Source: a virus. From it: a DNA stretch of 32,123 nt. The notes under the pieces were generated by a model that had not been told where the DNA came from, ran no database searches, and saw only the letters and a list, made by a program, of their open reading frames with translations. Positions within the stretch are counted from its first letter, which is position 1. Every line of letters begins with the position of its first letter. The stretch lies in IMG/VR virus record IMGVR_UViG_3300038701_003224, positions 1 to 32,123 of that record. One strand, given 5' to 3'. Shown here piece after piece: positions 8,178 through 19,751 of the stretch. Both the position numbers and the translations under genes were made by a program.

Positions 8178-9206
8178 TTATGAATAAGTTTCTGCATTTT
8201 TCTTCAAACCACCAGGGCAAAATTCGTAAGCACAACAGCCAGAATCCCGCGTTCCTAACTCTGAATGTGTCGGGAAATGTTCATTTTCCTCACAAGCAAC
8301 CATGAATTCAAGCGCTGCTTGAATGTGGTTTCTTTCTTCATCAAGAAGCTCTTGTGGAATGATCATTGGTCTGTATCTGGGAACTTCTTTTTTGTCAAAA
8401 ATATCAAGGACGCATGGCAATGTTTGACCAGTGTTCAGTTCTATCAATAATTGATAAAAGGCAAGCTGCTGAATGTATCGGTTGTCCTGTATTTTAAACT
8501 CAGCCTTGTCTATGTCCTCAAGAAGCTTTGTGTCTCGAATCATGCCACCTTCACCCAATCGAACCCGATCAGGCTTTCCACCTAACTTCAGTTTTCCTTT
8601 GAAATTTGCTTCAAACTCAACCTGCGCAGCCCATTCCCCATTCAGGTCAAATAACTCTTGCCTTTCCGCTTCCCTTTGAAGCTTGGCAATCATGTCGCCT
8701 TCCACAGCTGTCAGCTGAATAAATTTCACTATCGAATCTATATATTCAACTTTTAGCACAGCTTCTGAAACCTTCTGCGTCCAAGAATCAAAAGACTTCT
8801 GAACAGCAGTGGTTGCCTTTGGTTTTTTCCCTTCTTTTTCCAGTGCCTTGTTTTCTTTCAATTTCAAATCAAGCCTTTCTTTTCTTTCGGAAAGTTCGTT
8901 CTCAAGTTTTTCCAAGTCCATTTTCGCACTTTCCAAATCATCAAGACTCAAAGAATTCTTACCTGGCTCTAAGATCATGTATTTTTCCAAAAACTTTTTT
9001 TCACCATAAGAAAAAAGATCATCAATCGCAGTTCCCATTTTGAAATAAGTCTTGACCTTTCTTTCTAGTGGCTGCTTTTTTTTGTATATCAATTCGTACG
9101 AAAAAGGACACTTCATAAAAGTTTTCAGCTTAGAAGAAGTGACAATGCCTTCTGTTTTTAAAACGTACGGGTCAACTGAGGCAGAAACGGTTTGAATTGG
9201 TAACAT
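8178..9206 (-). CDS. RecB/AddB-family PD-(D/E)XK exonuclease
   Basis: Protein of 342 residues. The N-terminus has the family opening TSSKLKTFMKCPFSYE; the nuclease core is GGKPDRV (Asp213), IRDTK (Asp225, Lys227) and the helix QQLAFY (QxxxY motif, about 247-251). Between residues 85 and 185 is a long charged coiled-coil insertion. Cys33 with Cys305, 324/325 and 330 might form an iron-sulfur cluster as in AddB or Cas4, though the spacing is not the textbook one. With the RecT-like protein it would form an exonuclease-annealase recombination pair. Its own dyad promoter lies upstream, and TACAAAAAAAC precedes the ATG. Confidence 0.85.
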   Translation of the reverse strand: MLPIQTVSASVDPYVLKTEGIVTSSKLKTFMKCPFSYELIYKKKQPLERKVKTYFKMGTAIDDLFSYGEKKFLEKYMILEPGKNSLSLDDLESAKMDLEKLENELSERKERLDLKLKENKALEKEGKKPKATTAVQKSFDSWTQKVSEAVLKVEYIDSIVKFIQLTAVEGDMIAKLQREAERQELFDLNGEWAAQVEFEANFKGKLKLGGKPDRVRLGEGGMIRDTKLLEDIDKAEFKIQDNRYIQQLAFYQLLIELNTGQTLPCVLDIFDKKEVPRYRPMIIPQELLDEERNHIQAALEFMVACEENEHFPTHSELGTRDSGCCAYEFCPGGLKKNAETYS

Positions 9207-10153: not shown

Positions 10154-10575
10154 CTCAATAAAGTTAAGAGTTTTTTAATGGTTTCTGATTCTTGGTCTTC
10201 GTCTGTGGCTTCGGATTTATCATCTTTTAAGAGTTTCCAGTGACAAATAAAAATAGGATTAAGTAACCAGTCTTTTGTAATATTTTTTTCCGAAATTCCA
10301 AATTTAGTATCGTATAAATAGTTTTCGCCCAAAGCTGACATAACCCTGCCGATTGTTATTGGTAATTTGTCTTTCTCTGAAACACCGAGACCAAGACAGC
10401 AAGGGCATTTGGGATAAGGCTTGTTTATTTTTCCCTTTCCAAATCTACCATTCACACGACACATATAACACTCGCATACAACCTCTTCATAAGGAAGTCT
10501 GTGTATTTTTTCAATAACGAGTCTTTTAAACTCTTTTCTGATTTTCTTTTCCGTTTCCGTGTTTTGGTTAGTCAT
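10150..10575 (-). CDS. Hypothetical zinc-binding protein
   Basis: 141 residues. CECYMC and CPCCLGLG (about residues 34-62) form a likely zinc site, the second resembling a DnaJ-type CxxCxGxG knuckle. The middle LPITIGRVMSAL and the C-terminal DEDQESETIKKLLTLL look like a pattern common in phage proteins of unknown role. It starts one base inside the stop of the clamp-like gene (TAATG) and ends with an ATGA overlap, so the three genes are one unit. Confidence 0.55.
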   Translation of the reverse strand: MTNQNTETEKKIRKEFKRLVIEKIHRLPYEEVVCECYMCRVNGRFGKGKINKPYPKCPCCLGLGVSEKDKLPITIGRVMSALGENYLYDTKFGISEKNITKDWLLNPIFICHWKLLKDDKSEATDEDQESETIKKLLTLLR

Positions 10576-11174
10576 TATTTTCTTGGCATTATAATTAAAG
10601 AAACCCCTTCTTTCGCTTCAAAAATTACAGGCTCTATACCAAAGTGATGAACATCGACAGTTTCAACCCCAAGGGCTATCAATGCTTCCACAACTGTTTG
10701 AAGATATTGTTCGCCGACGTAAGTGTTTGTTCTAGGAAGCTTGACTCCTAGAACATGATTTCTTTGAAGATACCCTGATCCGTTGCATTCATAGCAGGAT
10801 TTATAGATCGTTTCGCTGTCCAAATTTCCACATTCTTCAAACCCTGCTCCACTACAAAAGGAACATGACCCAGAATCAGGGATCACAAAGTCAAAAACCA
10901 TATCAAGAAGATCCAGAACTTTGATTTTAGTTTTTTCGTGCTTCTCTGTGGGATTTAAGATCTCGAGAGTTTTTTCTCCAGGAAAGGCTTTATTTTCCGT
11001 GTAATTCATACCGATGAGCTTTTTATCGACAATCATTGCTATATATCCATTCGTAGATACTACAAAATTTTTAATAAGATGCGGATTTTCTAGTATTGAT
11101 CGCCGCCCACCTCCTGTAAATTTTTTGAGATAGAAGTCGAGAATATTTGGCGAAACCGATTTTTTATCATTCAT
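10575..11174 (-). CDS. Zinc-finger protein with sliding-clamp-like ends (possible)
   Basis: 199 residues from the ATG at 11174. The N-terminus (RRSILENPHLIKNF, then STNGYIAMIVDKKL) recalls the beta-clamp pattern RPxL...ATDGxRLA, and the C-terminus (EQYLQTVVEALIALGVETV, PVIFEA, VSLIIMPRK) recalls the clamp ending with YL..aL, P.l and IMPxR. Between them is a double DnaJ-type zinc site (CSFCSGAG, CYECNGSG). The protein is far shorter than a 360-residue clamp. The likeness is a reading by eye and should be treated as a hypothesis; a zinc-binding phage protein is the safe call. Confidence 0.5.
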   Translation of the reverse strand: MNDKKSVSPNILDFYLKKFTGGGRRSILENPHLIKNFVVSTNGYIAMIVDKKLIGMNYTENKAFPGEKTLEILNPTEKHEKTKIKVLDLLDMVFDFVIPDSGSCSFCSGAGFEECGNLDSETIYKSCYECNGSGYLQRNHVLGVKLPRTNTYVGEQYLQTVVEALIALGVETVDVHHFGIEPVIFEAKEGVSLIIMPRK

Positions 11175-11228
11175 GTTTTCTTCTCTCTTTTTACTTGTGA
11201 GAGTCAAGGGTTTTAAGGGTTGTTTTCC

Positions 11229-12550: not shown

Positions 12551-13657
12551 CTACGTAAAAAGGTTTTCTACATATTCAGCGTCAGCAACCTCATCACCTT
12601 CTCTTTTTGGAAATGTTTTTAGCTTTTCCCCAAGTGCATTCCAAATAGATTTCACCTGTTCATCACAAAGCCCGCCACGATCTTCAAGACTCACTGCTTT
12701 TGAAAACTTTTCTTTGAGCTGATTTATTTCTTTGAACGATTTACAGGCTTCTATTTTCTTACAAAAAGAAGAAACACTTCTTGAAATTTTTTCTTTTTGA
12801 GACTCAGAAAATACTTCTTTGTCTTTTTTTGAAACCACTGGTTTTTTCACTTCTTCAGAAACCCCAATTCCTTTTTTGTCTTCACTCGTTGGCTTGATGT
12901 CAGGTTTTTCGTTCGCAACAGAACCAACTTCTTTTTCTTTTGGTTTTTCTTCTTCTATATTTTCAGGCACTTCCGTTGGCGCTGAAAAATCTGAAGCATT
13001 GAACTCTGCGTTTCCCAATCTCACTGCTGGTTTTTCGCTTATGTTGGGCAAATCGTCCATTTCTTCTTTGATGTACGAAACAGCATTTCCCATGACTTCA
13101 GGAATGTGGAATCTCAAAAGTCTCGCAAGTCCGTGCCAACGCAGTTTGTCAGAAAGAGCAAACCCCGCAGCCTTAGACCCAAGCTTCTTGAGTTGTTCTT
13201 GTGTCGCAGTGTATTCATGTTCCTCGCCATTCTTAGACACCTTCACCGTGACTTCTGTTTCTTTTTCTTCTAAATATTCTATTTTCCAACCATGCTCACG
13301 AATTCTTTTTGAAACCGCAGCACCCCAAAGCGTGATCTTTCCTTTCACAATATAAAGAGAATTCATGGCTTCCATTGGCGGCATTCCCATTTCCGCACCC
13401 GTCTGAATTTTCACAAAAGCCTGAAAAGCATTTTGAACATCTGAACCAAAGCAACCTGCTTTGTGTAGCGTGTCAGCAATCGTCATCATTTGTGAAATCC
13501 GTTCACGTTGAAAATGAATGTCTAGTGGTGACATCATGACTGAGTCTGGAAGTTCAGGGTTTGAATCCTGAGTTTTTACCAGATTGTTTTTATCTGGTTG
13601 CGCAACCAAATTATTTGTTTGCACATTATTATTCTGTATCTGGGTTTGTCCGTTCAT
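12551..13657 (-). CDS. RecT-like single-strand annealing protein
   Basis: 368 residues. Residues 50-200 carry the pattern FVKIQTGAEMGMPPMEAMNS then IVKGKITLWGAAVSKRIREH, and a later SDKLRWHGLARLLR, like the phage recombination proteins usually annotated as RecT. The C-terminal part (about 210-368) is a charged linker plus a helical domain (ISRSVSSFCKKIEACKSF). Such proteins anneal single strands produced by the partner exonuclease, here the RecB-like enzyme at 8178-9206. It has its own dyad promoter. ATG is preceded by TACAAAAAA with no spacing. Confidence 0.7.
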   Translation of the reverse strand: MNGQTQIQNNNVQTNNLVAQPDKNNLVKTQDSNPELPDSVMMSPLDIHFQRERISQMMTIADTLHKAGCFGSDVQNAFQAFVKIQTGAEMGMPPMEAMNSLYIVKGKITLWGAAVSKRIREHGWKIEYLEEKETEVTVKVSKNGEEHEYTATQEQLKKLGSKAAGFALSDKLRWHGLARLLRFHIPEVMGNAVSYIKEEMDDLPNISEKPAVRLGNAEFNASDFSAPTEVPENIEEEKPKEKEVGSVANEKPDIKPTSEDKKGIGVSEEVKKPVVSKKDKEVFSESQKEKISRSVSSFCKKIEACKSFKEINQLKEKFSKAVSLEDRGGLCDEQVKSIWNALGEKLKTFPKREGDEVADAEYVENLFT

Positions 13658-15370: not shown

Positions 15371-15441
15371 ATTATTTTTTCAAGAATATTTGAAATCCTC
15401 ATAAGCGCACAAAAAATCAGAAATAATATAAACGATCTCAT
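15367..15441 (-). CDS. 24-residue single-helix membrane peptide
   Basis: A very short frame encoding MRSFILFLIFCALM followed by RISNILEKII: one hydrophobic helix with a positive end. Both its ends are ATGA overlaps (15438-15441 with the HTH gene, 15367-15370 with the next gene), so the ribosome would pass through it. This coupling is the main reason to call it. Function unknown. Confidence 0.5.
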   Translation of the reverse strand: MRSFILFLIFCALMRISNILEKII

Positions 15442-15683
15442 TTCAAAATATCAAAAAAAGTCGAAGCGTCAAAACCACAGATTTCAGAAAGAACCTGAAT
15501 TGATTTTTCATCTCTGGGATTGTACGTTCCTTTTTGCCAATACCAAATAGTCGTTGGGGAAACAGACACACCATACTTTTCAAACTCAAGCGACAATTTA
15601 GTTGTTGTCCAACGGTTTTCTTTGCACCAAACATCGAAACTAAGTTTAGTTTTTACGATTTTTTCAATTTTTGATTTGCCCAT
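15438..15683 (-). CDS. Small HTH protein, candidate regulator
   Basis: 81 residues from the ATG at 15683 (MGKSKIEKIV); a TTG at 15692 is a weaker choice. Residues 26-51 (TTTKLSLEFEKYGVSVSPTT then IWYWQKG) match the Cro/C1-type helix-turn-helix, with the recognition helix at about 42-50. C-terminal helices (SIQVLSEICGFDASTFFDIL) complete the five-helix fold. It is in the first operon, transcribed from a dyad promoter, and is the only clear repressor-sized HTH protein here, so it may bind the repeated dyad and regulate itself. Confidence 0.7.
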   Translation of the reverse strand: MGKSKIEKIVKTKLSFDVWCKENRWTTTKLSLEFEKYGVSVSPTTIWYWQKGTYNPRDEKSIQVLSEICGFDASTFFDILK

Positions 15684-15876
15684 TTTCTTCAATAATTACA
15701 ACATGTTTCCAATGACACTTTGGGCAATTTGCCCTTCTGTTTGCAAAACGCCAAATGGTATAGAAAACACCAGGAAGCAAAAAAAAGAACCAACCGAAAA
15801 TTTCCAACGTGAGACTTCCCGCACGTTTCTTTTTTGCAGTTCCTTCGTATTCACAATTTGGACACTTGATTTTCAT
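15664..15876 (-). CDS. Zinc-ribbon membrane protein
   Basis: 70 residues. CPNC (5-8) and CPKC (51-54) flank one hydrophobic segment (about 22-43, TLEIFGWFFFLLPGVFYTIW). This is the layout of a widespread family in which two cysteine pairs join into a zinc ribbon across a membrane-dipping helix; function is not known. First gene of the early region. The ATG lies 7 bases after the -10, implying a leaderless transcript. It overlaps the HTH gene by 20 bases. Confidence 0.7.
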   Translation of the reverse strand: MKIKCPNCEYEGTAKKKRAGSLTLEIFGWFFFLLPGVFYTIWRFANRRANCPKCHWKHVVIIEENGQIKN

Positions 15877-15883
15877 CTACAAC

Positions 15884-15913
15884 ATTCTTTCACACCTGAA
15901 AACTTTTTTCAAG
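15884..15913 (-). promoter_or_regulatory. Promoter with dyad operator (copy e), first early promoter
   Basis: On the minus strand TTGAAA (15912-15907), 17 bp, AAGAAT (15889-15884). The dyad CTTGAAA-N5-TTTCAGG (15913-15895) has one mismatch. It sits between the origin-like region and the first gene, and would drive the HTH gene itself. Confidence 0.65.
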
Positions 15914-15937
15914 TTTTTTTCTTTCTTACTGATATTT

Positions 15938-16361
15938 AGTTTTTAAATATTTATAAATAGTAGTAGATAGTAGTGAAAACTTGTGCAAAACCTTGTGATT
16001 AAATAAGAATTTCTTTTTATAGAATCAAAAAAATACTTTTCCAGCGTTGAATAAATAATATTTATAAAATCATTTTTTTTTCAAAAACATTACTGTTGAA
16101 TAAATTTTTTGACCAATTCCCTTTTGTTATAGAAACAAATATATAAATCGCGCATAAAATGTGCAAAAACCATTTGAATTGTTGAAAAACTTTGTGTAAA
16201 ACTTCTGTAAAAATGTGCAAAACCGAGAAAAATAAAAACAAAAACAATAGTTTTGCACAATAGAAATTTTAGAAATTGTTCAAAACAAAAAAACTATTGT
16301 GCAAAACTATTATAAAATGTGGAAAAAACATTCTAAAATGTGCAAAACTTGTGTAAAACTT
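15938..16361. other. Origin-like region: AT-rich stretch, TAG trios, nine DnaA boxes
   Basis: This is the only gene-free stretch above 300 bases. From left: AT-rich 15938-15957; TAG trinucleotides at 15958-15966 and 15968-15973; then DnaA-box matches (TTWTNCACA) at 15982, 16160, 16193, 16214, 16298, 16318, 16339 and 16350 on the minus strand and at 16251 on the plus strand (start positions, 9 bases each). The order AT-rich, trio, box is that of the bacterial basal origin-unwinding element (DnaA-trios on the 5' side of a box). I infer replication start by host DnaA. No coding frame here is convincing. Confidence 0.65.
16246..16311. repeat. 18-bp perfect inverted repeat containing two DnaA boxes
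   Basis: AATAGTTTTGCACAATAG (16246-16263) is repeated exactly in inverted orientation at 16294-16311, with a 30-base AT-rich spacer. Each arm holds one DnaA box, facing each other. It could be a DnaA loading site, an extruding cruciform, or, read on the minus strand with T-rich sequence after it, a weak terminator behind the gene ending at 16362. Confidence 0.8.
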
Positions 16362-18782: not shown

Positions 18783-19751
18783 CTATCCTAATTTTTCGTC
18801 AATCCTTTTCAAAAGAACTGCCATTTCTGCACGGGTAACGGGCTGGTTTGGTCTAAAAGTTCCGTCATCATATCCTTTGAAAATTCCTTCATCACGCGCC
18901 CACTTTATTGCTTCAAAAGCCCAAGAATCATTGGAAACATCTTTGAACAATTTTTCTTTTTCCTCTGATTTTTCATTTCCCTCAACGTACTCAAACCCAA
19001 TGGTGAAACCCCAAAAACGAAATAGGTTTCCGCGCTGATCAGATTTTGTATAAAAATTCCCGTTATCTCCCCAGCGACTGCCCCAACTGTTCTTGTGAAC
19101 CGCAGCACCTTCATCAGAAAAAGACTTGAACTGTCTTGAAACAAATTCTTGCCAAGACCGACCTTTCCCAACAATAGGAAAAGCGTGTCCGTCATTCACA
19201 GCCCTTTTCTGGCTTTTTGGGAAATAGGGTTTGTATTTGGCATTTGCAATCACCAGACCCAACCGAGAAGACGTACCAGTTAAAACACACCCGCCAAAAT
19301 AAACTTCTTCCCAAAAAGAATTCTCGTCTTCATCGTCCATGTCAAAATAATCTTCAACCCAAACTTTTACTTCCCTTCCGTCTTCGTCCATAAATATTTG
19401 ACCGCGTTCTTTTTTGTGAAAGAATTTTAAAACGTCATAAATATAAGACCCCTTTTTCTTGTCCCCAAATCCTTGAGAAGTTCCAAAGTTCCAAAGTTCC
19501 AAAATCCTTTCGTCTGGAATCACCAATTTCTTTCCCGTTGTGAGAAAGAATTTTATTTCAAGACCAGAACACCCTGAGAAATACCCACAAGCCATTGAGT
19601 CATGTTGGTCTTTTGTTTTGTACAAAACAGAATGATCGAATTCTTTGATCACAGACCTTCCCGTCTTTCCACCAAAAAAGTGACCTCTTTTGAAGTCTCG
19701 AACATCTTTTGGTGTGTCGAAAGCCCCGTAACCTTTGTTTGAAAATATCAT
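18783..19751 (-). CDS. Papain-like (C1A) cysteine peptidase with SLH domain
   Basis: 322 residues. The C1A catalytic set is clear: Gln49 and Cys55 with papain spacing (DQHDSMACGYFSG), His189 (NDGHAFPIVG) and Asn221 in KNSWGSRWGDNG. Residues 269-317 form one SLH repeat (FKDVSNDSWAFEAIKWARDE, then GYDDGTFRPNQPVTRAEM), a domain that binds secondary cell-wall polymers. No signal peptide or propeptide. It lies in the block that begins with a holin-like protein, so it is a good endolysin or cell-wall peptidase candidate; a virion-associated receptor or S-layer protease is the alternative. ATGA overlap with the upstream gene. Confidence 0.9.
   Translation of the reverse strand: MIFSNKGYGAFDTPKDVRDFKRGHFFGGKTGRSVIKEFDHSVLYKTKDQHDSMACGYFSGCSGLEIKFFLTTGKKLVIPDERILELWNFGTSQGFGDKKKGSYIYDVLKFFHKKERGQIFMDEDGREVKVWVEDYFDMDDEDENSFWEEVYFGGCVLTGTSSRLGLVIANAKYKPYFPKSQKRAVNDGHAFPIVGKGRSWQEFVSRQFKSFSDEGAAVHKNSWGSRWGDNGNFYTKSDQRGNLFRFWGFTIGFEYVEGNEKSEEKEKLFKDVSNDSWAFEAIKWARDEGIFKGYDDGTFRPNQPVTRAEMAVLLKRIDEKLG

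Follow-up and report, generated by a model that had tools for sequence, protein, structure and literature searches.

A candidate chromosomal-type origin for host DnaA in a tailed phage genome without recognizable initiation genes

The origins of the phage-plasmid P1 (oriR) and of pSC101 resemble the locus described here in carrying host DnaA boxes on an extrachromosomal element, but they need their own RepA and iterons, and neither was recognized in the present phage. Lambda-type origins likewise combine iterated sites with AT-rich DNA in a phage genome, but lambda encodes the initiator O and the helicase loader P, for which this phage has no recognizable equivalent. To our knowledge, the dsDNA phages and DnaA-using plasmids that have been studied well supply an initiator themselves, and our literature search (open-licence papers only, all terms co-occurring) found no phage with host DnaA as its sole initiator.

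Bacterial chromosomal origins with a basal unwinding system (BUS), such as those of B. subtilis and C. difficile (oriC2), contain DnaA boxes, a short spacer, TAG trios, an AT-rich unwinding region, and a tandem box next to the trios (PMC6669920, PMC8287927, PMC7561715). The C. difficile trio is 5'-CACCTACTACTATTACTACTATGA-3' (PMC7561715), and a published search rule for the BUS requires a box with no more than two mismatches, a spacer of up to 16, and at least three NAN trios (PMC8287927). These elements recur in the phage, with the trios on the same relative strand, although the tandem box is represented only by a near-box with one mismatch to the consensus. The phage locus differs from the two chromosomal origins in its location in a phage genome, in its boxes, which are mostly TTTTGCACA, in the lack of an adjoining dnaA or dnaN, and in having only two uninterrupted TAG trios by the box, with three more past an extra base.

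The window analyzed is the whole of IMG/VR record IMGVR_UViG_3300038701_003224 (32,123 bases). Both ends of the record carry a direct repeat of approximately 126 bases, and it is therefore probably a complete circular map. All genes read lie on the − strand and mostly start without Shine-Dalgarno motifs; TGA serves as a stop codon (20 of 49 genes). The structural module is of siphovirus type (portal, MuF-like, capsid, tail tube, tape measure, and Dit proteins), and the early module contains RecT-like, exonuclease VIII-like, SprT-like, and endonuclease genes. A non-coding gap separates the tail module, which ends with the gene from 16362, from the early module, which begins with gene 15664–15876. 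An original prediction, made from the sequence alone, had described this large non-coding stretch as a bacterial oriC-like region with nine matches to the DnaA-box consensus TTWTNCACA, eight of them in the same orientation. This description was confirmed: the gap is the longest between consecutive genes (the next measures 240 bp), and it holds nine exact matches, eight on one strand. We consider it likely that host DnaA uses this gap as an oriC of chromosomal type, although this assignment is drawn from sequence features, and binding, opening, and replication are untested. The features of the gap are as follows.

15877–16361, no strand: non-coding gap, proposed origin; 485 bp, 23 per cent GC, largest intergenic gap
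15922–15971, no strand: predicted DNA unwinding element; lowest stability of any 50-bp window in the genome, next to the trios
15958–15973, + strand: DnaA-trio-like repeats TAG TAG TAG A TAG TAG, with a one-base interruption
15982–15990, − strand: DnaA box 1, TTTTGCACA, 8 nt from the closest TAG
15994–16002, − strand: near-box TTAATCACA, one mismatch, in tandem 3 bp past box 1
16049–16148, no strand: second AT-rich low-stability stretch; lowest 100-bp window, between box 1 and the array
16160–16168, − strand: DnaA box TTTTGCACA, exact consensus match
16193–16201, − strand: DnaA box TTTTACACA, exact consensus match
16214–16222, − strand: DnaA box TTTTGCACA, exact consensus match
16246–16311, no strand: inverted repeat with 25-nt arms (88 per cent complementary), a 20-bp stem, and two DnaA boxes
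16251–16259, + strand: DnaA box TTTTGCACA, the only inverted one, within one inverted-repeat arm
16298–16306, − strand: DnaA box TTTTGCACA, within the opposite inverted-repeat arm
16318–16326, − strand: DnaA box TTTTCCACA, exact consensus match
16339–16347, − strand: DnaA box TTTTGCACA, exact consensus match
16350–16358, − strand: DnaA box TTTTACACA, exact consensus match

Read on the + strand, the left part of the gap consists of AT-rich DNA, the interrupted TAG trios, 8 nt, TGTGCAAAA, 3 nt, and TGTGATTAA. That this order corresponds to a BUS had been predicted, and the published rule is satisfied by five trios (TAT AAA TAG TAG TAG) that a 15-nt spacer separates from the box at 15982; the order and strand of trios and box are those described for C. 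difficile (PMC7561715). The rule is permissive, and the striking features are the TAG content and its orientation. (TAG)x3 occurs only once in the whole window, and (TAG)x2 followed by a box within 16 nt is confined to this gap (0.001 expected), with no instance of the reverse order. The TAG trinucleotides adjoin the first box as predicted, but they are not continuous, being interrupted by one extra base.

An AT-rich stretch, predicted to be the unwinding element that an origin should have beside its boxes, is also present. In a nearest-neighbor scan of duplex stability across the whole genome, the windows of lowest stability at 50, 100, 200, and 450 bp are all located in this gap, the first of them at 15922–15971. 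GC skew, which had been proposed as a further check, proved uninformative in this genome with all genes on one strand: its detrended range does not exceed the null (P = 0.55), which speaks neither for nor against an origin.

Comparison with shuffled sequence, also proposed in the original prediction, places the box cluster well above chance. Dinucleotide shuffles of the gap (n = 5000) yielded a mean of 0.30 matches (SD 0.53) and a maximum of four (three in a single orientation), against nine observed. The eight same-strand boxes have start-to-start spacings of 178, 33, 21, 84, 20, 21, and 11 bp and are helically phased, with a best period of 10.50 bp (R = 0.948 in a scan of 9.5–12 bp; P = 0.0015 after the period scan and less than 1 in 20,000 at a fixed 10.5), placing them on one helix face over 35 turns. 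The tandem near-box (15994), with its single consensus mismatch, is not among the nine. The commonest box word on the + strand is TGTGCAAAA, and three of its four one-mismatch neighbors in the gap differ at the N position of the consensus, where DnaA tolerates variation. At this position the nine boxes have G six times, A twice, C once, and T never.

The same preference (G>A>C) is found in an order of Patescibacteria that includes a Peregrinibacteria genome. Log-likelihoods of the nine phage boxes are −11.95 for this order, −18.5 for Saccharibacteria (preferred box TTTTCCACA), and −26.7 for Clostridia (preferred box TTATCCACA); among the three groups compared, the spelling thus fits the Patescibacteria order best, while the host itself is only inferred. 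At 30 dnaN loci of the order, TTTTGCACA occurs 27 times (2.4 expected), TTTTACACA 23 times, and TTTTCCACA 10 times; the first two are enriched approximately tenfold, whereas TTTTTCACA is not enriched (3 versus 4.8 expected). Upstream of dnaN, 12 of 29 loci carry the trio motif on the expected strand and none has it on the other (null mean 2.3), and the dnaN starts mostly lack Shine-Dalgarno motifs.

This survey was not selected by box spelling, whereas two individual loci were, having been retrieved by scanning bacterial genomes for three close TTTTGCACA boxes, a scan that also returned many unrelated repeats. One is the oriC beside dnaN of Candidatus Peregrinibacteria bin120o (L147), which reads AT-rich DNA, TAGTAGTAGTAATAATAG, 10 nt, and TGTGGAAAA, together with a mixture of TTTTGCACA and TTATGCACA boxes. 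The other (L066), from Candidatus Gracilibacteria, adjoins recA and has eleven boxes, CTACTACTACCACTAC, and AT-rich DNA in a design like that of the phage gap. The bin120o oriC and the dnaN regions of its order (L190–L219) share with the phage the box spellings and their rank order, the trio motif with an AT-rich flank, and gene starts (dnaN) without Shine-Dalgarno motifs. Unlike the phage locus, they are chromosomal, lie beside dnaN, and have boxes in both orientations, and there is no long sequence similarity to the phage. A 17-mer, the longest word common to the phage and a host-type oriC (L202), was discarded as evidence in its own right, being within chance expectation (P = 0.18). In the Gracilibacteria MAG, the oriC-like cluster by recA occupies positions 600–960 of L066, and dnaA is on a different contig.

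Among 288 genomes of the class concerned (Gracilibacteria-class Patescibacteria), 11 have homologs of the phage portal protein, and the capsid and terminase queries matched nothing in the 89 genomes of the best-matching order. The host is therefore likely to be a member of the class, which is unproven, and its exact identity is an inference. No match was obtained with the capsid query in a sample of the phylum or with the portal query against genome contigs, and tetranucleotide usage, which gave no pointer to the best-matching order, was uninformative about the host. The fetched contigs that carry the class-level portal homologs contain no box cluster. Some of the genomes with portal homologs, and the related phage L230/L221 (IMGVR_UViG_3300001765_000077), read TGA as a residue, whereas the present phage uses it as a stop; in L230/L221 the genes stay open when TGA is decoded as glycine (code 25).

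Two distant relatives encode initiation proteins of their own. L230 has a Lin1244_N-type protein and an IstB/DnaC-like ATPase, with only six scattered boxes in its record, and L182 has DnaB and a Phg_2220_C protein, with two boxes in a 6.4-kb fragment. These observations are consistent with a host-type origin having taken the place of initiator genes in the present phage, a suggestion that depends on three phages and incomplete sequences. A sister phage fragment (L043) contains structural genes only. Among viral contigs, the RecT-like and tail protein queries recovered no relatives, the terminase query recovered only distant ones without box clusters, and no relative covering the gap was found.

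The phage itself was predicted to encode no recognizable initiator, helicase, or primase, and this holds in Pfam and PHROG scans of approximately 20 non-structural proteins, in which no initiator, loader, helicase, primase, or polymerase was matched. Two recombination proteins were identified.

8178–9206, − strand: PD-(D/E)XK exonuclease, exonuclease VIII-like, RecT partner (Pfam DUF3799, E = 1.7e-15; PHROG 412, E = 8.2e-13)
12551–13657, − strand: RecT-like annealing protein (PHROG 4171, E = 1.4e-7)

The observed box count, phasing, position of variation, strand and order of the trios, duplex stability, and box spelling, independent checks that might each have turned out negative, lend support to the predicted direct use of host DnaA, a role that is still inferred. 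Under this proposal, host DnaA would bind the phased array (16160–16358) and the tandem pair (15982–16002), and its filament would extend onto the TAG trios (15958–15973) and melt the AT-rich stretch adjoining them. Theta replication of the circularized genome would follow, started by the helicase loader, DnaB, primase, and Pol III of the host. The RecT-like protein, a likely recombination partner for later replication, could together with the exonuclease subsequently make concatemers for packaging. DnaA binding, opening, helicase loading, circularization, and the switch to recombination are inferences throughout. We lean, by no more than a little, toward the broader interpretation that this is an initiator-free tailed dsDNA phage of Gracilibacteria-class Patescibacteria, whose replication from a functional counterpart of the host chromosomal oriC is governed directly by host DnaA, and that its relatives instead encode proteins for initiation. 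If this is true, reliance on host DnaA alone would tie phage replication to host cell-cycle control. The phage would then also serve as a compact natural mini-chromosome in which to read the oriC code of uncultured Patescibacteria, since in vivo study of DnaA from these bacteria is not yet possible.

Alternatively, the repeats could be iterons for an unrecognized phage initiator that merely resemble DnaA boxes. Iteron origins, too, typically have direct repeats in helical phase beside AT-rich DNA. For several early proteins, the Pfam and PHROG scans assigned no family, and single-sequence models of two of them failed (pLDDT of about 36); therefore, a new type of initiator among the early proteins cannot be excluded. 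However, tandem units of equal length are not seen: the spacing is irregular (11, 20, 21, 33, and 84 bp), with neither a constant unit nor a long common one. Nor was an adjacent rep gene recognized: the non-structural proteins that were scanned against Pfam and PHROGs gave no Rep-like match. Moreover, the repeats vary at the W and N positions of the DnaA consensus, their spellings match the chromosomal oriC boxes of a plausible host class, and BUS trios are present in the correct orientation. We regard the iteron explanation as unlikely.

Box clusters by themselves make no origin, and the array might instead titrate host DnaA (datA-like) or couple early transcription to DnaA, with replication starting elsewhere or depending on recombination, which RecT and the exonuclease could support. 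This explanation can also draw on a second, smaller group of boxes.

595–631, no strand: second mini-cluster of three boxes (TTATTCACA on the − strand, TTTTCCACA and TTATGCACA on the + strand), in the gap 545–642

This mini-cluster spans 37 bp of a 98-bp gap between the head-protease and MuF genes, and its variation is confined to the W and N positions, which counts in favor of the host-DnaA reading; one of its boxes falls in a terminator-like stem. Titration or transcriptional coupling gives no reason, however, for trios beside the least stable DNA or for the adjoining tandem box pair, and we find it quite unlikely.

The repeats could also be operators for a phage repressor or activator that controls early transcription, for which there is one candidate.

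15438–15692, − strand: small HTH-like protein, candidate repressor (weak Pfam HTH_32 match only)

The early operon follows the gap, the − strand of which has seven sigma-70-like sites (3.2 expected), and the HTH-like gene is the second one downstream. Nevertheless, a Cro-like operator would not usually comprise nine asymmetric sites, mostly in one orientation and spread across 370 bp, and the trios, the match to host oriC spelling, and the missing initiator would be left unexplained. We find operators alone very improbable, although operator and origin roles could coexist. Finally, a chance accumulation of boxes in DNA of only 23 per cent GC is scarcely credible, being already contradicted by the counts (no shuffle above four) and by the phasing.

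Two of the nine boxes of the proposed host-DnaA origin, those at 16251 (+) and 16298, sit one in each arm of the inverted repeat and may be there for another reason. As − strand RNA, the repeat is predicted to form a strong hairpin (z = −8.75) with a U-rich tract after it. It may terminate late transcription or act as a DnaA-box hairpin; both roles are untested. A DnaA-box hairpin can load helicase in the ABC primosome (PMC6127211). The phage repeat resembles the A-site of that system in holding DnaA boxes in its stem, but differs in that it also resembles a transcription terminator.

Two other phage proteins deserve mention. The product of gene 10575–11207 (− strand) contains a DnaJ-type zinc-finger segment, and its terminal IIMPRK recalls sliding clamps; its identification as a clamp was supported neither by BLAST to DnaN nor by a single-sequence model. 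In the tail region, the protein encoded at 18783–19751 (− strand) has an SLH domain as well as a weak match to papain-like peptidases and possibly acts on the host surface.

Among viral contigs, matches to the two-box pattern were mostly unrelated repeats. Seven viral contigs have 8–10 boxes, mainly TTTTCCACA, within 450 bp; these boxes are in both orientations, no trio motif accompanies them, and several of the contigs have gene products in common. Given that many other viral contigs have such trio-less TTTTCCACA clusters, phages may carry DnaA-box arrays more often than has been described.
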